From assembly GCA_001871015.1 (NCBI GenBank), contig MNUO01000080.1, positions 1-8,868 of the forward strand: a stretch of 8,868 bases of DNA, written 5' to 3'. Positions 3,450-8,719 of the stretch are shown piece by piece. How positions within the stretch are numbered: the stretch's first letter is position 1; each line of letters begins with the position of its first letter. The notes under the pieces were generated by a model, which saw only the letters and a list, made by a program, of their open reading frames with translations, did not search any database and was not told the origin of the DNA. The position numbers were made by a program, and so were the translations under genes. The DNA is from Candidatus Desantisbacteria bacterium CG1_02_38_46. GTDB taxonomy: Bacteria; Desantisbacteria; UBA1551; UBA1559.

Positions 3450-4343
3450 ATGGGACATTGGGGCTATTTCCCACACTATACACCGGCAGAGCCAAAAAAA
3501 GTAAAGGATGGAATTAAATTAGAATCAAAGAAAATTGGCAAAACCTGGTGGTCAGAAAAATGGATAAACGTGCTCAATTCTTTTGGCTGGTCCAACAGAT
3601 TACAAAGAGGAAGATCCTATGCAAGACAGGGTCAAATAGTAAATTTTAAACTTGAACCAGGAATGGTCAATGCCCAGGTTCAGGGAACTGCTTCTAATCC
3701 CTATACAGTAAAAATTAAATTGAAAATGTTCTATGACAAAGAATGGAACAAAATAATTACGGCAATGAGCTCGCGATCTGTCTTTATGGCAAAACTACTT
3801 CTTGGAGAAATGCCTCCAGATATTGAGGAAGCTTTTACTGATACAAGGATTAACCTTTTCCCCCGGGATAAAAAAGATATTGAATCTGATTGTTCCTGTC
3901 CTGATTGGGCAAATCCCTGTAAACATATTGCTGCTACATATTACGTGCTTGCCGACGAATTTGACAGGGACCCATTTATGATTTTTCTCCTGAGAGGTCG
4001 TTCCAAAGAGCAGATTATTCAGGAATTGCGAAAAATACGCCAGGAAAAATCAAAATATTTGCGCAAAACAGAGGTCAATATAAAAAAATCACAGAAAATT
4101 AAACAACCATCTCTTGCGCTTGAGCAGTGCTTAAATCAATTCTGGACAAGTGGAGAAAAACTTAGCTCTATCAAATTTTCGTTTAATCCTGCACCTGTTC
4201 AGATGTCTTTAATTAAGAGACTCGGTACACCTGTGATTTGTCGTGAGGAAAGAAAATTTTTGTCCTGGATGAAATCTGCTTATCGTATAGCAAGCAGGAG
4301 AGTATCAGAAATATTTCTGTCTGATTCCCAGGGAAATATGTAG
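3450..4343 (+). CDS. SWIM zinc-finger protein, partner of the SNF2 helicase
   Basis: A 297-residue protein with a SWIM zinc finger, CxC...CxH, seen as CSCPDWANPCKH with ligands C148, C150, C157 and H159. SWIM domains are thought to bind DNA or protein. In bacteria, SWIM proteins of this type are recurrently encoded next to SNF2 helicases, exactly as here. The N-terminal part has the usual features of the group: TWWSEKWI near 32-39, RGRSYARQGQIVNFKLEPG near 54-72, and an AKLLLGEMPPDIEEAF helix before the finger. After the finger comes FDRDPFMIFLLRGR, then a charged linker (about 190-220) and a helical C-terminus. The start is supported by AAGGAG at 3438-3443, six bases before ATG, lying inside the end of the helicase gene. 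This implies translational coupling. The TAG stop at 4341-4343 is part of the GTAG of the first downstream hairpin repeat, so the last residues may have been set by repeat insertion. The protein otherwise looks complete. Confidence 0.93.
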   Translation: MGHWGYFPHYTPAEPKKVKDGIKLESKKIGKTWWSEKWINVLNSFGWSNRLQRGRSYARQGQIVNFKLEPGMVNAQVQGTASNPYTVKIKLKMFYDKEWNKIITAMSSRSVFMAKLLLGEMPPDIEEAFTDTRINLFPRDKKDIESDCSCPDWANPCKHIAATYYVLADEFDRDPFMIFLLRGRSKEQIIQELRKIRQEKSKYLRKTEVNIKKSQKIKQPSLALEQCLNQFWTSGEKLSSIKFSFNPAPVQMSLIKRLGTPVICREERKFLSWMKSAYRIASRRVSEIFLSDSQGNM

Positions 4344-4361
4344 CAGTGTGATTTATCACAC
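4340..4361 (+). repeat. REP-like hairpin, GTGTGAT stem, overlapping a stop codon
   Basis: GTAG (4340-4343), then CA, then perfect 7-bp arms GTGTGAT (4346-4352) and ATCACAC (4355-4361) around TT. The same hairpin recurs at 8653-8668, also just after a gene. The TAG of the GTAG is the stop codon of the SWIM gene. Confidence 0.8.
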
Positions 4362-4364
4362 AAT

Positions 4365-4420
4365 GTAGTGGCCAAAAGTAGCCGACTGTAGGCACTCTGG
4401 AAGTGCAGAGTTTACTCGAC
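4365..4420 (+). repeat. 56-bp composite repeat unit, hybrid right arm
   Basis: Starts with GTAGTGGCC and contains two further GTAG tetramers. It holds a hairpin with arms GCACT (4392-4396) and AGTGC (4402-4406), and then begins the GCAGAGT hairpin. The final arm is ACTCGAC rather than ACTCTGC, so only the inner four pairs form. Near-identical units with the proper arm lie at 7737 and 7823. Confidence 0.8.
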
Positions 4421-4423
4421 AAT

Positions 4424-4445
4424 GTAGTGGCAGAGTTTACTCTGC
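4424..4445 (+). repeat. REP-like hairpin, GCAGAGT stem
   Basis: GTAG near 4424-4427, then arms GCAGAGT (4430-4436) and ACTCTGC (4439-4445) around TT. This is the commonest stem type in the window. Confidence 0.85.
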
Positions 4446-4451
4446 AGAAAA

Positions 4452-4475
4452 GTCGAGCAAGCTCGACCACTACAA
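4452..4475 (-). repeat. Inverted REP-like hairpin, GTCGAGC stem
   Basis: On the minus strand this reads TTGTAGTG followed by perfect arms GTCGAGC and GCTCGAC around TT; on the + strand the arms are 4452-4458 and 4461-4467 around AA. It is the only unit in opposite orientation and lies between two forward GCAGAGT units, a head-to-head/tail-to-tail layout like a BIME. Confidence 0.8.
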
Positions 4476-4476
4476 T

Positions 4477-4524
4477 AGTGGCAGAGTTTACTCTGCAATT
4501 AAAAAATGGTCGGTGTCCCTATTT
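4477..4524 (+). repeat. GCAGAGT hairpin plus conserved right-border tail module
   Basis: AGTGG, then arms GCAGAGT (4481-4487) and ACTCTGC (4490-4496), then a 28-bp tail at 4497-4524 starting AATTAAAAAATGG and ending TGTCCCTATTT. The same tail follows the last hairpin of the 7667-8057 cluster (8030-8057) with a single mismatch. The hairpin lacks a 3' T-run on the + strand, so it does not look like an intrinsic terminator. Confidence 0.8.
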
Positions 4525-4588
4525 TTCCAAGAATACTTAACCCTTGTACGCCATTAAAGAGGAGAAATTTAAGTTAAGGATGATTTTA

Positions 4589-4619
4589 TTGGGCAAAATT
4601 TGTAAATTTTACCTAATAC
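4589..4619 (+). promoter_or_regulatory. Possible promoter with AT-rich palindromic operator
   Basis: A perfect inverted repeat, AAAATTT (4595-4601) and AAATTTT (4604-4610) separated by GT, sits 19 bases before the ATPase start. A second GG/CC pairing lies just outside it. It falls between TTGGGC (4589-4594) and TAATAC (4614-4619), which could be weak -35 and -10 boxes, though a 19-bp spacer is long. The palindrome is seen directly. Its use as an operator is inference. Confidence 0.3.
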
Positions 4620-4629
4620 ACATAAGAAA

Positions 4630-5937
4630 ATGGACAAAAATGAAATAATTAGAATATTGGAAGATTGGAATTTCTGGAAAAGAAAACTTGATATAGGAAT
4701 TACCAGAACCTATTATCTTGATAGAGTGAAAAAATTTCTTATAACCAACCAAATTTTAGTAATCCTTGGAGCAAGGAGAAGCGGAAAATCTTTTATTATG
4801 AGGCAAATCGTTAATGATTTGATTGGCCAGGGAATAAAGAGTAACAATATTCTAATTATTAATTTTGAAGACCCTCGTTTTATAGAATTAGATGCTAAAA
4901 CTCTGCAGAAAATTTATGAAGTTTATTTAGAGTTTCTCAATCCTGAAGAGAAGCCATATATTTTTCTTGATGAGGTTCAAGAAGTCAAAGAATGGGAAAA
5001 ATGGGTAAGGATGATGCATGAACTTGGAAAAGCAAAAATTATCATTTCTGGTTCAAACGCAAAACTTTTAAGCAAGGAATTAGCTACATTGCTTACAGGA
5101 AGACATCTTGATTTAACAATTTTTCCTCTTTCATTTAGAGAATATCTTTCATTTAATAATATTGAGATAAAAGACGATCTGGATGTTATAAATCAAAGAA
5201 ATGAAATAAAAGGATCATTAAGAAAGTATCTTGAATTTGGCTCATTTCCTGATGTAGTTTTAAGCAAAGAAAAAAACCAGATTTTATTGAGTTATTTTGA
5301 AGATATATTGAGTAAAGACTTAATAAAAAGATTTAAAATTAGAAAGAGTGAAAAACTAAAAAGTCTTGCAAAATTTTATTTAAGTAATATTTCAACGCTT
5401 ACAACTTTTAGTTCCATAGAAAAATTTTTAGGAATTTCTGCTGATACAGTAGAAAAATTTTCAAATTATTTTGAGACTGCCTATATACTTTTTTTTCTCA
5501 AGAGATTTTCTTTTAAAGTTAAAGAACAAGAAAAAAGCCCAAGAAAAGTTTATAGTATAGATTCTGGTTTAGCAGGGGCAGTTGGTTTTAGATTTAGTGA
5601 GAATCTTGGAAGGGTTGCAGAAAATCTTGTATTTTTAGAATTAAAGAGAAAACAAATAGTAAATCCAAATTTAGAACTTTACTACTGGAAGGACCCGCGT
5701 CATCAAGAAGTAGATTTTTTGATAAAAGAAGAGTTTAATGTTAAACAACTCATTCAAGTCTGCTGGGAATTAAGCCGTCCCCACACAAAAGATAGGGAGA
5801 AAAGGATACTACTTAAAACAATGGAAGAATTTAATTTAAAAGAAGGTTTAATTATAACCGAGGATGAAGAGAGAGAAGAAAAGATAGATAAATTAAGAAT
5901 CAAAATAATTCCTCTCTGGAAATGGCTATTAGCATGA
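4630..5937 (+). CDS. AAA_14/DUF4143 family ATPase
   Basis: A 435-residue P-loop ATPase of the AAA_14 + DUF4143 type, common in archaea and in environmental bacteria, with no established cellular role. Walker A is GARRSGKS at 47-54. Walker B is YIFLDEVQE with D114 and E115. The sensor-like segment ISGSNAKLLSKE is near 139-150 and the TGRH arginine motif is at 156-159. The C-terminal half is DUF4143, with ENLVFLELK at 331-339, EVDFLI at 360-365, LIQVCWEL at 374-381, and the characteristic ending PLWKWLLA. This half has a PD-(D/E)xK nuclease-like layout. D362 is kept, but the usual E-x-K pair is Q376-V-C378, so nuclease activity is doubtful. ATG 4630 is the first in-frame ATG after a stop at 4603. 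No clear Shine-Dalgarno precedes it, consistent with a short or absent leader. Decayed relatives of this gene are at 45-305 and near 7511-7540. A bound partner or target cannot be read from the sequence. Confidence 0.9.
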   Translation: MDKNEIIRILEDWNFWKRKLDIGITRTYYLDRVKKFLITNQILVILGARRSGKSFIMRQIVNDLIGQGIKSNNILIINFEDPRFIELDAKTLQKIYEVYLEFLNPEEKPYIFLDEVQEVKEWEKWVRMMHELGKAKIIISGSNAKLLSKELATLLTGRHLDLTIFPLSFREYLSFNNIEIKDDLDVINQRNEIKGSLRKYLEFGSFPDVVLSKEKNQILLSYFEDILSKDLIKRFKIRKSEKLKSLAKFYLSNISTLTTFSSIEKFLGISADTVEKFSNYFETAYILFFLKRFSFKVKEQEKSPRKVYSIDSGLAGAVGFRFSENLGRVAENLVFLELKRKQIVNPNLELYYWKDPRHQEVDFLIKEEFNVKQLIQVCWELSRPHTKDREKRILLKTMEEFNLKEGLIITEDEEREEKIDKLRIKIIPLWKWLLA

Positions 5938-5941
5938 GTAT

Positions 5942-6097
5942 TATTCCCGCAGGCCTGCTCTCGTATGTAGTAATCTGGGATTAAAATACTGCATTGATGC
6001 CTGGAGCGCAACAGATTTAATTGAAAATCCGGAGGAGAAATTGAATATAAAAGTAAAAATAAAAGATGGGAGTCCGATAAGTGGGGAGATGGTATAG
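5942..6097 (+). pseudogene. Remnant of the 3' end of a papain-like (C1A) peptidase gene
   Basis: In the frame ending at TAG 6095-6097, the translation contains KYCIDAWSATDLIENPEE followed by LNIKVKIKDGSPISGEMV. The first part matches, at 14 of 14 residues, the C-terminal segment of the peptidase remnant at 7487-7666, where the catalytic-Asn motif is visible. Upstream of Lys (5984) the match breaks down and appears to carry a small deletion. The tail reads like the beginning of a beta-rich extra domain, stopped five bases before the next gene. No start codon or ribosome site belongs to it. The identification rests on the better-preserved second copy. Confidence 0.6.
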
Positions 6098-6101
6098 TCA
6101 A

Positions 6102-7442
6102 ATGCTCTTGACTAGCGAAGAGTTTAAGAAGATTTTAAAATTTGGGGAAGGGGAAACGATTGAATTTAAAAAAGAAATTTCTGCTATTCCTGATTTGGCT
6201 AAACAGTTTACTGCATTTTCGAATATCAGAGGTGGCTGGATGTTATTTGGTATTGATGACAGAAAGAAAGTTATTGGTATAAAAGCTGGAGAAAAAGAGA
6301 AACAGCTGTTGATTAACGTAGCACGCAACAATTGTCAGCCGCATATTGCAATTAAATGTGATTTATTAGATACAGACAAGAAAAGGATCTTAGTAATACA
6401 TGTGCCTGAAGGTGGGGATAAACCTTATCAGGCTAATGGTAAGGTATATGTTAGAATAGATTCTCACACCCATGTTGCTACCGGAGAAGAACTCAGGAGA
6501 CTTATTTACGAAAGTGGTCGGTTGTTTTATGAAAAACGTCCAGTGATTGAGTCAAATTTAGGGCATTTGGATGAGAAGAAATTAAAAACATATGTGCGCA
6601 GAATATTAAAACAGAAACAAAGGTTTTTTCGAGAAGGAAAAATTATTCCTACTATCGCGGGAATATTGTTGTTTGGAAAATACCCGCAGGGGTTTCTACC
6701 AACATCTACACTTAAAGCATATTTCTTTTCTGGAAGAGAAAAAGACATAAGATATATAAAAGATAAAGAAGATGTTGAAGGTACCCTGCCAGAAGTTATT
6801 GATAAAACCCTGGCATTTATACAGAAAAACCGTCGAATTATTCCAGATATGACAGGTGTTCGAAGAAAAGATATTCCTACTTATCCAGATTATTCAGCCA
6901 GAGAAATATTAGCCAATGCTGTAGCTCACAGAGATTATAGTTTAAGTGGAGCAAAGGTTGAAGTTTTAATGTTTGACGATCGAATGGAAGTCATTAGCCC
7001 TGGCAATTTACCTCCTTCTATATCAATTGAAAGGCTAGGAATAGATCATTATTCCAGGAACCCGCTAATTGCTAAAGTGTTAAACCAAATGGAGTATATT
7101 GAAGAAGTTGGGATGGGTATAAGGAGGGTTCGCGAGGAGATGGCGTCTTTAAAGTTACCCATTCCTAAGTTTGAAAATGAAGGGATTAATTTTAAGGTTA
7201 CTTTCTTATGCCCAAGGACATCTGAGATATTTGAAAAGAAGGAAGAAGTAGGTTTAACTTCTCGCCAAAAGAAAGCAATTGAATATGCAAAAGAAAAGGG
7301 TTCTATTACGACTAGGGAGTATCGGCAAATTACTGCCATTGGCAAGGTATATGCAGTGAAAGAATTGAATGATTTAGTGAAAAAAGGATTATTAAAAACA
7401 ATGGGCAAGGGAAGATCGACCAGGTATATAGTAATAGATTAG
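6102..7442 (+). CDS. Schlafen-type AlbA_2 domain protein with HATPase_c_4 and winged-helix domains
   Basis: A 446-residue protein from ATG 6102. Residues about 10-130 form an AlbA_2 (Schlafen-fold) domain: GEGETIEFKKE (E16, E21, K23), AFSNIRGGWMLFGIDD at 38-53, and GKVYVRIDSHTHVATGEEL. A GHKL-type ATPase domain follows: N-box EILANAVAHRDY (E268, N272), DDRMEVISPGNLPP at 292-305, and EEVGMGIRRV at 334-343. The last ~60 residues (385-446) look like a winged helix: LTSRQKKAIEYAKEKG... ending RSTRYIVID. Such proteins are usually annotated as transcriptional regulators or RecG-like ATP-binding proteins; some Schlafen-fold proteins are nucleases. GTG 6081 is a longer alternative start, but ATG 6102 gives the usual family N-terminus and has GGGGAG at 6083-6088, with a rather long spacing of 13. 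The gene is flanked on both sides by C1A peptidase debris. It could be a regulator or an accessory/defence protein; the sequence does not decide. Confidence 0.88.
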   Translation: MLLTSEEFKKILKFGEGETIEFKKEISAIPDLAKQFTAFSNIRGGWMLFGIDDRKKVIGIKAGEKEKQLLINVARNNCQPHIAIKCDLLDTDKKRILVIHVPEGGDKPYQANGKVYVRIDSHTHVATGEELRRLIYESGRLFYEKRPVIESNLGHLDEKKLKTYVRRILKQKQRFFREGKIIPTIAGILLFGKYPQGFLPTSTLKAYFFSGREKDIRYIKDKEDVEGTLPEVIDKTLAFIQKNRRIIPDMTGVRRKDIPTYPDYSAREILANAVAHRDYSLSGAKVEVLMFDDRMEVISPGNLPPSISIERLGIDHYSRNPLIAKVLNQMEYIEEVGMGIRRVREEMASLKLPIPKFENEGINFKVTFLCPRTSEIFEKKEEVGLTSRQKKAIEYAKEKGSITTREYRQITAIGKVYAVKELNDLVKKGLLKTMGKGRSTRYIVID

Positions 7443-7468
7443 TGAACGATTAGTGAACGATTAGTGAA
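7437..7468 (+). repeat. 11-bp tandem repeat giving stops in all three frames
   Basis: The unit GATTAGTGAAC occurs 2.9 times (7437-7447, 7448-7458, 7459-7468). The first copy contains the last codon and the stop of the preceding gene. Each copy holds TAGTGA, a double stop, and the 11-bp period places these in three successive reading frames. Confidence 0.9.
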
Positions 7469-7486
7469 AAAACTTATTTAAAATAG

Positions 7487-7666
7487 CACTCTTCTCAAAC
7501 AATATACAGTTGTGAAAATTTAGTTTTTCTGGAATTCAAAAATTCCTGGAGTAAAAACTGGGGAGACAAAGGATATGGTTATCTTGGTTATGAATATATT
7601 GAAAAATATTGTATTGACGCCTGGAGCGCAACAGACTTGATTGAAGACCCAGAAAAGATAGTAAAT
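7487..7666 (+). pseudogene. Remnant of a papain-like (C1A) peptidase joined to a DUF4143 scrap
   Basis: One open frame reads CENLVFLEFKNSWSKNWG followed by DKGYGYLGYEYIEKYCIDAW and SATDLIEDPEKIVNV. KNSWSKNWGDKGY is the catalytic-asparagine motif of C1A cysteine peptidases (NSWGxxWGxxGY), and GYGYLGYEYI fits the bacterial branch of that family. The upstream domain with the catalytic Cys and His is absent, as is any start codon. The residues just before, ENLVFLEFK, match ENLVFLELK of the DUF4143 ATPase, suggesting a fusion of two gene scraps near 7540. The frame runs into the GTAG hairpin that starts at 7667 and ends at TAG 7712-7714. By alignment with the copy at 5942-6097, the peptidase match ends where the repeat begins. 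Confidence 0.65.
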
Positions 7667-7705
7667 GTAGGGGCGCACCCACTTCGTGGGTACCCGATCA
7701 CGCCC
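7667..7705 (+). repeat. GTAG-led nested hairpin repeat
   Basis: GTAG at 7667-7670 is followed by outer arms GGGCG (7671-7675) and CGCCC (7701-7705). Inside lies a 6-bp hairpin, ACCCAC (7677-7682) with GTGGGT (7686-7691). It has the same GTAG foot as the other units but a longer, GC-rich structure, so it is probably a different REP-like subfamily. Confidence 0.7.
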
Positions 7706-7710
7706 GTTTT

Positions 7711-7733
7711 GTAGCGCCCCGATTTATCGGGAC
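7711..7733 (+). repeat. REP-like hairpin, CCCCGAT stem
   Basis: GTAGCG, then arms CCCGAT (7718-7723) and ATCGGG (7726-7731) around TT. The seventh pair is a C/A mismatch. The linker is GTAGCG rather than GTAGTG. Confidence 0.75.
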
Positions 7734-7736
7734 AAT

Positions 7737-7792
7737 GTAGTGGCCAAAAGTAGCCGACTGTAGGCACTCTGGAAGTGCAGAGTTTACTCTGC
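7737..7792 (+). repeat. 56-bp composite repeat unit
   Basis: A full unit: GTAGTGGCC at the left, a GCACT/AGTGC hairpin, and a complete GCAGAGT-TT-ACTCTGC hairpin at the right. It is the reference form for the copies at 4365, 7823, 7881 and 7984. Confidence 0.85.
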
Positions 7793-7822
7793 TTTATGTA
7801 GCGGTCGTATTCATGCGATATT
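7793..7822 (+). repeat. REP-like hairpin, GTCGTAT stem, copy 1
   Basis: GTAGCG, then arms GTCGTAT (7804-7810) and ATGCGAT (7813-7819) around TC. Five Watson-Crick pairs and two G-T pairs form. It is part of a 45-bp segment (7786-7830) repeated exactly at 7923-7967. Confidence 0.75.
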
Positions 7823-7878
7823 GTAGTGGCCAAAAGTAGCCGACTGTAGGCACTCTGGAAGTGCAGAGTTCACTCTGC
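7823..7878 (+). repeat. 56-bp composite repeat unit, TC apex
   Basis: Same as the unit at 7737 except that the apex of the final GCAGAGT hairpin is TC instead of TT. Confidence 0.85.
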
Positions 7879-7880
7879 TG

Positions 7881-7929
7881 GTAGTGGCCAAAAGTAGGCA
7901 CTCTGGAAGTGCAGAGTTCATCACTCTGC
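7881..7929 (+). repeat. Composite repeat unit with 10-bp deletion and 3-bp apex insertion
   Basis: The segment between two GTAG tetramers is lost, as expected for slippage between them. The final hairpin apex is enlarged to TCATC by a TCA insertion. The stem arms are unchanged. Confidence 0.8.
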
Positions 7930-7959
7930 TTTATGTAGCGGTCGTATTCATGCGATATT
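7930..7959 (+). repeat. REP-like hairpin, GTCGTAT stem, copy 2
   Basis: Identical to copy 1 at 7793-7822, with arms at 7941-7947 and 7950-7956. Confidence 0.75.
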
Positions 7960-7981
7960 GTAGTGGCAGAGTTCACTCTGC
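7960..7981 (+). repeat. REP-like hairpin, GCAGAGT stem, TC apex
   Basis: GTAGTG, then arms 7966-7972 and 7975-7981 around TC. Confidence 0.85.
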
Positions 7982-7983
7982 TG

Positions 7984-8057
7984 GTAGTGGCCAAAAGTAG
8001 GCACTCTGGAAGTGCAGAGTTTACTCTGCAATTAAAAAATGGTCGCTGTCCCTATTT
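7984..8057 (+). repeat. Composite unit (10-bp deletion) plus right-border tail
   Basis: The 46-bp shortened unit (7984-8029) ends in a GCAGAGT-TT-ACTCTGC hairpin. It is followed by the 28-bp tail at 8030-8057, one mismatch from the tail at 4497-4524. The rfbC start follows 21 bases later. Confidence 0.8.
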
Positions 8058-8078
8058 AATTACCATGGGGTGGTATAA

Positions 8079-8645
8079 ATGCCTTTTAATTTTAAGAAAT
8101 TAGAGATTCCTGATTTGATTCTTATTGAGCCCGTTATTTTTGGGGACGAGCGTGGCTTTTTTGCTGAGACATATAAATTCTCTGATTTTGAGAAAGTAGG
8201 TATTAAATATCAATTCGTGCAGGATAATCATTCCAAATCAAAAAAGAATATTTTAAGAGGTCTTCATTATCAATTGAATCCAGGAGCGCAGGGAAAATTG
8301 GTGCGGGTCATAAAGGGGAGCGTTTTTGATGTAGCGGTTGATATAAGAAAAGGTTCTCCTTACTACAAGAAATGGGTAAGCATTATTCTTTCCAATGAAA
8401 ATAAGAATATGCTCTGGGTTCCACCAGGTTTTGCACATGGTTTTCTCGTGCTGGAAGACGATACAGAGGTTTTTTACAAGGCGACTGCGGAATATTCACA
8501 GCAGTTAGACCGTGGAATATTGTGGAATGACACTGAAATAGGTATAAAGTGGCCTGTTGAAAACCCTGTTTTTTCAGAAAAGGATGTAAAAAACCCTCTG
8601 CTTTGTAATGCAGAAAACAATTTCGTTTATAAAAAAGAAAGTTAG
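8079..8645 (+). CDS. rfbC: dTDP-4-dehydrorhamnose 3,5-epimerase
   Basis: A 188-residue cupin-fold epimerase (RfbC/RmlC) that converts dTDP-4-keto-6-deoxyglucose to dTDP-4-keto-rhamnose, the third step of dTDP-L-rhamnose synthesis for surface polysaccharides. It is cytoplasmic. Family signatures appear in order: GDERGFFAETY at 22-32, QDNHSKSKKNILRGLHYQ at 48-65, VFDVAVDIRKGSP at 82-94, LWVPPGFAHGFLVL at 112-125, YKAT after Y133, and DRGILWND at 144-151. The expected active-site residues are present: H63, K73, Y133 and D169. The length is normal. The ATG start has a GGGGTGG stretch at 8067-8073, five bases upstream, a moderate ribosome site. No rfbA, rfbB or rfbD lies beside it in this window; the gene stands alone between two repeat clusters, and a hairpin unit starts one base after its stop. 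Confidence 0.96.
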   Translation: MPFNFKKLEIPDLILIEPVIFGDERGFFAETYKFSDFEKVGIKYQFVQDNHSKSKKNILRGLHYQLNPGAQGKLVRVIKGSVFDVAVDIRKGSPYYKKWVSIILSNENKNMLWVPPGFAHGFLVLEDDTEVFYKATAEYSQQLDRGILWNDTEIGIKWPVENPVFSEKDVKNPLLCNAENNFVYKKES

Positions 8646-8719
8646 TGTAGTGGTGTGATTTATCACACAATGTAGTGGCAGAGTTTACTCTGCTGGTAGT
8701 GGCAGAGTTTACTCTGTGC
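8646..8719 (+). repeat. Cluster of three REP-like hairpins after rfbC
   Basis: A GTGTGAT hairpin (arms 8653-8659 and 8662-8668), then a GCAGAGT hairpin (8678-8684 and 8687-8693), then a third whose right arm has an extra T (8702-8708 and ACTCTG at 8711-8716). Each is preceded by GTAG. The first matches the unit that overlaps the SWIM stop codon. Confidence 0.85.

Follow-up and report, generated by a model that had tools for sequence, protein, structure and literature searches.

Results

A family of GTAG-footed hairpins

The window, by which we mean the entire 8,868-nt stretch of DNA analyzed, contains short hairpins composed of a GTAG foot, a two-base YG linker (mostly TG or CG), a 7-bp stem and a TT or TC apex, followed by variable bases 3′ of the stem. 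A type A unit, GTAG-TG-GCAGAGT-TT-ACTCTGC, occupies positions 19–40 on the plus strand with 7/7 stem positions paired, and a type C unit, GTAG-CA-GTGTGAT-TT-ATCACAC, also paired at 7/7, lies at 4340–4361 (+). Positions 4424–4473 hold a heterotypic inverted pair of repetitive extragenic palindrome (REP) units, or REPIN, whose left half is a type A unit (4424–4445, +) and whose right half is a type B unit on the minus strand, GTAG-TG-GTCGAGC-TT-GCTCGAC (4452–4473). The pair is flanked at 4405–4420 (+) by a footless hairpin that, read directly from the sequence, is a chimera of the type A left arm GCAGAG and the type B right arm CTCGAC with only 4/6 pairs, and at 4475–4496 (+) by a type A unit with its foot mutated to ATAG.

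The remaining units all lie on the plus strand. The type C-like unit GTAG-CG-CCCCGAT-TT-ATCGGGA (7711–7732) pairs at 6/7 positions, and two copies of a degenerate type C-like unit, GTAG-CG-GTCGTAT-TC-ATGCGAT (7798–7819 and 7935–7956), pair at 5/7 with two G-T. Interspersed with these are type A hairpins with displaced feet, namely GCAGAGTTTACTCTGC at 7777–7792, separated from its GTAGTG foot (7737) by a repeated insertion, GCAGAGTTCACTCTGC at 7863–7878, GCAGAGTTCATCACTCTGC at 7911–7929, whose loop on direct reading is expanded by 3 nt, and a further hairpin at 8014–8029, together with a 7/7 type A unit with a TC apex at 7960–7981. Toward the end of the window, a type C unit, GTAG-TG-GTGTGAT-TT-ATCACAC (8647–8668, 7/7), is followed immediately 3′ on the same strand by a type A unit (8672–8693, 7/7) and then by another paired at 6/7 (8696–8717). 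Several window copies are degenerate, having lost the foot, acquired an insertion or become chimeric.

The layout, which a first-pass annotation of this DNA had described, is real and occurs far above chance. GTAGYG occurs 18 times in the window, where 2.2 occurrences would be expected, and in the geometry of a 2-nt linker and 2-nt apex GTAG yields 53 hairpins per 1000 sites, compared with 2.9 for control tetranucleotides. We extended the analysis to a 462-kb sample of the host (27% of the genome) and to whole-genome pattern searches, which recovered 164 exact A/B-type units and none with the reversed pattern; a degenerate pattern lacking a pairing constraint was dropped as non-discriminating (531 hits versus 556 in the reversed control). 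Among 141 sites selected in the 462 kb on foot, linker and apex alone, without regard to pairing, 96 have at least 6/7 complementary stem positions. These sites comprise 66 distinct combinations of left and right arms, 25 of which are complementary (at least 6/7) against 2.8 with shuffled partners (maximum 10 in 10,000 shuffles).

Stem covariation

Across 29 distinct units, 95.6% of stem cells are paired and all seven stem pairs show two-sided changes, giving a covariation score of 0.86 compared with 0.29 after shuffling (reached in 0/500 shuffles) and at most 0.17 for slid versions. The earlier proposal that the covarying stem reflects selection on the fold is thereby borne out, and selection on the folded hairpin is supported. 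Neither a single recurring stem nor an absence of excess complementarity, either of which would have spoken against that proposal, was found, since a perfect right arm exists for 12 left arms and 8 of these recur. The five stem types originally listed fared unevenly: GCAGAGT, GTGTGAT and GTCGAGC are perfect, the last on the minus strand, while the other two are imperfect. In CCCCGAT/ATCGGGA the pair next to the foot is a C-A mismatch, leaving a true stem of 6 bp (CCCGAT) and a linker of 3 nt, and GTCGTAT/ATGCGAT is not a full stem, being Watson-Crick at only five of its seven pairs.

The unpaired terminal GTAG, the short palindrome within the superfamily's limits (stem 5–13 bp, loop 2–20 nt), the many copies and the subfamilies with complementary stem changes identify the hairpins as members of the published GTAG REP superfamily. 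The A/B clusters also contain two more REP subfamilies, type C (..GATTTATC..) and type D (CAGGRCT). Contrary to what the first-pass annotation had thought, the stem variation is not unusual, because both a structure-reading recognizer and compensatory subfamilies are already in print: group-3 TnpA_REP is described as depending on foot, apex and pairing more than on the sequence of the stem (PMC8266576), and the GTAG superfamily routinely forms compensatory stem subfamilies, with 2-nt linkers and TY loops known (PMC3733652).

Stem type follows strand

Neighboring units on opposite strands almost never share a stem. In the host sample 0/28 such neighbors do so, against 18.0 in orientation shuffles; the corresponding values are 3/124 against 23.1 at loci of relatives that carry a REP-associated tyrosine transposase (RAYT) gene and 2/116 against 5.7 in other phyla, with orientation exceptions at L193, L077 and L134. 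Same-strand neighbors share a stem in 36/48 cases in the host and 46/105 at RAYT loci. Genome-wide in the host, a pattern permitting A/A, A/B and B/B found 14/14 facing pairs to be A/B (GCAGAG/GTCGAG), although these pairs are related by descent and are not 14 independent events. These facing pairs were counted at gaps of 2–12 nt. The two halves of the element lie about 5–12 nt apart, each is self-complementary, and they have the foot and linker in common while differing in the stem interior.

The pair resembles a REPIN in being a close inverted REP doublet copied as a unit, with tandem amplification in places (for example, tandem copies at C5), and departs from one in that the same REP does not stand at both ends to pair into a long hairpin. 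Contrary to what had been supposed from the window, stems are therefore not freely interchangeable; for the most part, the two main types represent the strand-specific halves of a single inverted element, a heterotypic REPIN.

The strand rule is also seen in candidate phyla that carry the identical 22-mer, which occurs in genomes labelled Stahlbacteria (WOR-3), Elusimicrobia, Zixibacteria, Ratteibacteria and Planctomycetota. This common 22-mer points to spread between phyla or to unusual conservation. The GatB protein of the host is 60–62% identical to those of Ratteibacteria and UBA5214, too distant to assign the host to a phylum. That the hairpins are host RNA elements, such as terminators or mRNA stabilizers, kept for gene regulation rather than mobile DNA is highly improbable. 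The window units are intergenic and some lie at or after stop codons (4340, 8647), as such elements might, but the hairpins are not consistently followed by a T-run, the GTAG foot is conserved despite lying outside the stem, and identical 22-mers recur in unrelated phyla and in tandem arrays.

RAYT genes in the host and its relatives

GTAG at a hairpin foot had been taken as the mark of REPs moved by RAYTs. The hairpins are indeed REPs, and relatives carrying the same REP have RAYT genes flanked by REPs, with both stem types frequently surrounding a single gene. The host assembly (88% complete) yielded no RAYT with flanking REPs. Against the Y1/HUH model NF047646, the relatives' RAYTs L152, L168 and L170 score above the curated cut-off and L151 below it (69.8 versus 80); the relatives' RAYTs also match E. 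coli TnpA_REP (4er8). Three host Y1 genes were rejected as the cognate RAYT. Long terminal inverted repeats (GGGGACG..., GGGTCAGACCTC...) surround both C60, which contains one stop, and C109, whose C-terminal domain is DnaA-like, in the manner of a 'TIRtron'; C53, located at the end of a contig, is an IS200-like fragment.

Single RAYT genes of relatives with both halves around them (L164, L170, L186) make the several related RAYTs once invoked unnecessary for the two main types. The same loci bear on whether each stem type represents a distinct REP family with a dedicated RAYT, the families merely clustering together. Related genomes do hold several Y1 genes, and the linkers of types C and D are often different (CG, CT, CA), with neither type seen facing type A in inverted pairs in the host sample; given that A and B together flank single RAYTs and that A pairs with B and not with itself, the reading is already unlikely for A/B and overall quite improbable.

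A different possibility is that the stem types are left and right end marks, like LE and RE of IS200/IS605, which the transposase tells apart by stem sequence. Plus- and minus-strand REPs, defined by gene orientation, do keep separate stem sets upstream of, inside and downstream of the RAYT. We nevertheless consider this unlikely. Left and right are assigned differently at different loci, the GGGCTTGAT stem occupying the plus strand in L169 but the minus strand in L197, and both halves retain a GTAG foot and a palindrome of their own.

An unexpected finding was that REP hairpins lie within the reading frame in about half of the RAYT genes examined: 15/31 RAYT cores have at least one internal hairpin, compared with 0.11 expected from codon shuffles. 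These internal REPs are often both halves in REPIN orientation, and the protein changes with their stem type, reading VVAELALL, VVAELARL, VVAQFIEH or VVARFIEH at one position. The balance tilts slightly toward a RAYT clade, linked to these REPs, that carries them inside its own reading frame, such that the enzyme would have cognate sites in its own gene.

Folding of natural and homotypic pairs

DNA folding predicts two separate hairpins for 11/13 natural host pairs, whereas in-silico A/A or B/B controls give one long hairpin in 26/26 and two hairpins in 0/26. By these predictions, the different stems on each strand probably keep the halves from sticking together, a simple and testable reason for heterotypy in most host pairs. 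The folding argument is not universal in the models, as among 36 distinct natural stem pairs outside the host 24 favor two hairpins and 12 keep the long hairpin, mostly with mismatches.

Alternatively, the halves may be unlike solely because a near-perfect 22-bp hairpin with a 6-nt loop is lost through deletion or cleavage (by SbcCD-like nucleases or replication slippage), transposase recognition having no bearing on the difference. Such loss is proposed in PMC3733652, every homotypic version folds as a perfect long hairpin, and the natural pairs retaining the long fold are nearly always mismatched. Yet four other perfect inverted repeats (16–23 bp, loops of 4–9 nt) are present in the 462 kb of host sequence, so long perfect inverted repeats can persist and be assembled, and the strand rule extends within 600 nt around RAYT genes, where cruciforms are less likely. 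We regard deletion as a serious but less probable cause. The same four repeats led us to reject assembly loss of perfect hairpins as the reason for the missing homotypic pairs.

Discussion

We favor, with a probability of roughly 0.65, RAYT-moved heterotypic REPINs with stem-tolerant recognition and halves kept unlike. The GTAG-tagged REPs would be non-autonomous copies and remnants of an element that a short Y1/HUH RAYT mobilizes or once mobilized, with the inverted pair as the mobile unit, A (GCAGAGY) on one strand and B (GTCGAGY) on the other. The transposase would recognize the GTAG foot, two-base linker, paired stem and TY apex, and not one particular stem sequence, leaving the stem free to drift while paired. 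As to the cause of heterotypy, we infer that the difference is maintained because two identical halves would join in one 22-bp hairpin, abolishing the two single enzyme-bound REP hairpins.

Known systems share much of this arrangement. In the available parts of PMC3733652, members of the GTAG REP superfamily, of which GTAG-1 and GTAG-2 are nearest in layout, have the terminal GTAG, 2-nt unpaired linker, short perfect stem and TY loop, as well as compensatory subfamilies, dimers, clusters and heterodimers, and they are associated with RAYT genes, as are the REPs of the relatives here. Their linker is GW, in contrast to YG here (TT, TC or CT in relatives), and their conserved 3-nt tail is absent here; compared with the superfamily as described there, heterotypic pairing is here near absolute and strand-coded, and the hosts are candidate phyla that those parts do not name. 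REPINs (Bertels and Rainey 2011, PMC3116915) are likewise inverted REP doublets copied as a unit and found in tandem clusters, whereas here the two ends are unlike and separated by about 5–12 nt. The E. coli BIME also has two REP types, Y and Z, in opposite orientation around one RAYT (PMC2817692), and one enzyme is reported to act on y, z1 and z2 (PMC8266576). The palindromes of E. coli REPs are imperfect and bulged, whereas in the present elements the stems pair perfectly and it is the two halves that differ from each other. The Marinomonas REPtron Mb shares the 2-nt spacer after GTAG, the perfect stem and, with type A, the TTTA apex; its TnpA_REP needs the T, T and A of the TTTA loop and accepts replacement of the entire stem but no mismatch within it. 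It differs in its 5-bp stem and host, and the portion of PMC8266576 available describes no heterotypic pairing.

The near-absolute, strand-tied heterodimer preference in several candidate phyla bears on the heterodimer excess for which Di Nocera et al. (2013) had no obvious explanation (PMC3733652). The same paper reports mostly homodimers in P. putida and P. entomophila, which runs counter to our account of heterotypy. If RAYTs do carry cognate sites in their own genes, these may serve self-limitation or keep REP and enzyme matched, and RAYT genes with embedded REPs would offer a compact system for testing how the match between a domesticated transposase and its short targets is preserved.

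Hairpin units and their stems

The GTAG-tagged hairpins of the window occur singly at 19-40 and in spacer clusters at 4340-4496, 7711-8029 and 8647-8717, bordered by ordinary genes for an SNF2 helicase and SWIM-domain pair, an AAA_14/DUF4143 ATPase, a Schlafen AlbA_2 protein and a dTDP-sugar isomerase. Units comprise GTAG, YG and a 7-bp stem closed by TT or TC; the GTAG REP superfamily accommodates everything in the window, and the YG linker and absence of a tail set it apart from GTAG-1 and GTAG-2.

We picked sites on their foot, linker and apex alone in 462 kb of the host genome (assembly of 1.73 Mb in 133 contigs, 88% complete, the window being C120), and at least six of seven stem pairs formed in 96 of 141. 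Distinct paired arms numbered 25, compared with 2.8 for shuffled partners, and the excess fell at exactly the GTAG/2-nt linker/2-nt apex geometry. Genome-wide, 164 exact A/B-type units were found versus 0 matches to a control pattern, and paired units reached 9.1 per 100 kb in host contigs taken by a fixed rule. Every stem pair covaried, bearing out the first-pass annotation's proposal of hairpins with covarying stems.

The dominant stems are type A (GCAGAGY plus near variants, among them GCAGACC and GCAGGGC) and type B (GTCGAGY). Rarer are type C, which includes GTGYGAT, CCCCGAT and further stems with the ending GAT-TT-ATC, and type D (CAGGRCT). The CCCCGAT and GTCGTAT units, originally listed as having complementary arms, are not fully complementary. 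Chimeric hairpins with one A arm and one B arm (GTAGTGGCAGAGTTTACTCGAC, GTAGTGGTCGAGTTTACTCTGC) suggest that half-stems do get exchanged, leaving broken hairpins.

The window holds other repeats as well. A compound repeat, GTAGTGGCCAAAAGTAG(CCGACTGTAG)GCACTCTGGAAGT, lies between the GTAGTG foot and GCAGAG stem at 4365-4420, 7737-7792, 7823-7878, 7881-7929 and 7984-8029; across the 462-kb sample, GGCACTCTGGAAGTGCAGAG was counted 12 times. Downstream of REP clusters, GGTCGGTGTCCCTATTT / GGTCGCTGTCCCTATTT (4507-4527 and 8040-8057) look like ends of a TIRtron-kind terminal-inverted-repeat element. A 67-nt stretch (CTGGAGCGCAACAGA...) is present twice, at 79% identity, after the ATPase and Schlafen genes (5983-6049, 7603-7669); the copies may be what is left of a duplicated gene end.

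A and B are halves of one inverted element

In the host sample the stem type is tied to the strand. Of neighbours no more than 100 nt apart, 36 of 48 on the same strand had a stem in common, as did 0 of 28 on opposite strands, versus a mean of 18 (minimum 8) opposite-strand sharers when orientations were shuffled within contigs. A whole-genome facing-pair pattern that would admit A/A, A/B and B/B found 14 pairs, all A/B, including that at 4424-4473 in the window; in contig C5 the A/B pair stands in three tandem repeats. A and B are therefore two halves of one inverted element. Thus, of the interchangeable stems first described, the several types stand, but free swapping does not. Type C lay upstream of type A on the same strand in 7 cases, and none was seen facing type A in the host sample.

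The exact 22-mer GTAGTGGCAGAGTTTACTCTGC recurs in at least 91 stretches of other genomes, labelled, among the matches listed, Stahlbacteria/WOR-3, Elusimicrobia, Zixibacteria, Ratteibacteria, Planctomycetota and Brocadiaceae. Facing pairs with gaps of at most 12 nt were heterotypic, their halves differing in stem, in 64/64 cases in one Elusimicrobia genome and 22/22 elsewhere, RAYT (REP-associated tyrosine transposase) loci included; the two homotypic exceptions have larger spacing.

Transposase association

In relatives sharing the REP, GTAG hairpins flank the gene for a short Y1 protein (~150 aa; matching NF047646; closest structure 4er8), often with both stem types per side. Because both types flank one gene, one enzyme probably serves both halves, a reading supported by PMC8266576, in which Marinomonas-type TnpA_REP requires loop bases and perfect pairing yet tolerates stem swaps, and E. 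coli TnpA_REP works on three types of REP. A RAYT may have moved the host copies, and its recognition would ignore most of the stem. The proposed RAYT link is seen in relatives. In the host assembly, at 88% completeness, none of three Y1 matches has GTAG hairpins beside it, and the RAYT clade of the relatives was not found. Host Y1 genes L001 (C60) and L002 (C109) have long inverted repeats as flanks (AAAAAGGGGACG..., GGGTCAGACCTCAACATC) rather than REPs, and the L002 protein carries a DnaA-like C-terminal helix-turn-helix.

REP hairpins inside RAYT genes

Strict GTAG hairpins lie within the reading frame of 15 of 31 RAYT cores (loci L163, L167, L168, L170, L173-L178, L184, L186, L194, L198 and L201), a count whose effective number of cases is reduced by kinship; the codon-shuffle expectation is 0.11, and the remaining long open frames of these loci hold 0.057 hairpins per 400 bp. 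Genes with two internal hairpins of the common kind have them pointing outward with different stems, as in a REPIN (an inverted REP pair). L170, for example, has GCCGAGC and GCCAACC both inside and outside the gene. Hairpins at other positions in L184 carry the same stems, and L186 has three in-frame repeats of its second hairpin. The first position carries several stems with compensating changes, and the protein differs accordingly. On the protein tree the embedded state is clustered, yet requires several changes. REPs within other genes are already known; our literature search found no account of them inside RAYT genes, which is weak evidence of novelty.

Folding of heterotypic pairs

Heterodimer REPs were reported in 2013, their preference being said to have no obvious explanation (PMC3733652). 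With DNA parameters, naked-strand thermodynamics serving as a proxy only, 11 of 13 distinct natural host pairs gave two individual hairpins, whose bases were often connected by GTAGTG/CACTAC, and homotypic versions formed one long hairpin in 26/26. Elsewhere, 24 of 36 distinct natural stem pairs favoured two hairpins and 12 a long, mostly mismatched one; an explanation in which heterotypy keeps the halves apart therefore suits the host well without being universal. In L048 and further JAHJSU loci, one folded strand of the Elusimicrobia pair GCAGAG/GCAAAG favours two hairpins and the both-strand average is mixed; the fold may differ between strands owing to G-T versus A-C mismatches. Bertels and Rainey proposed that a long hairpin escapes the transposase and that the clover form is its substrate (PMC3116915). 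Most of the present pairs agree with this idea, without proving it, and heterotypy may exist to keep the two halves apart.
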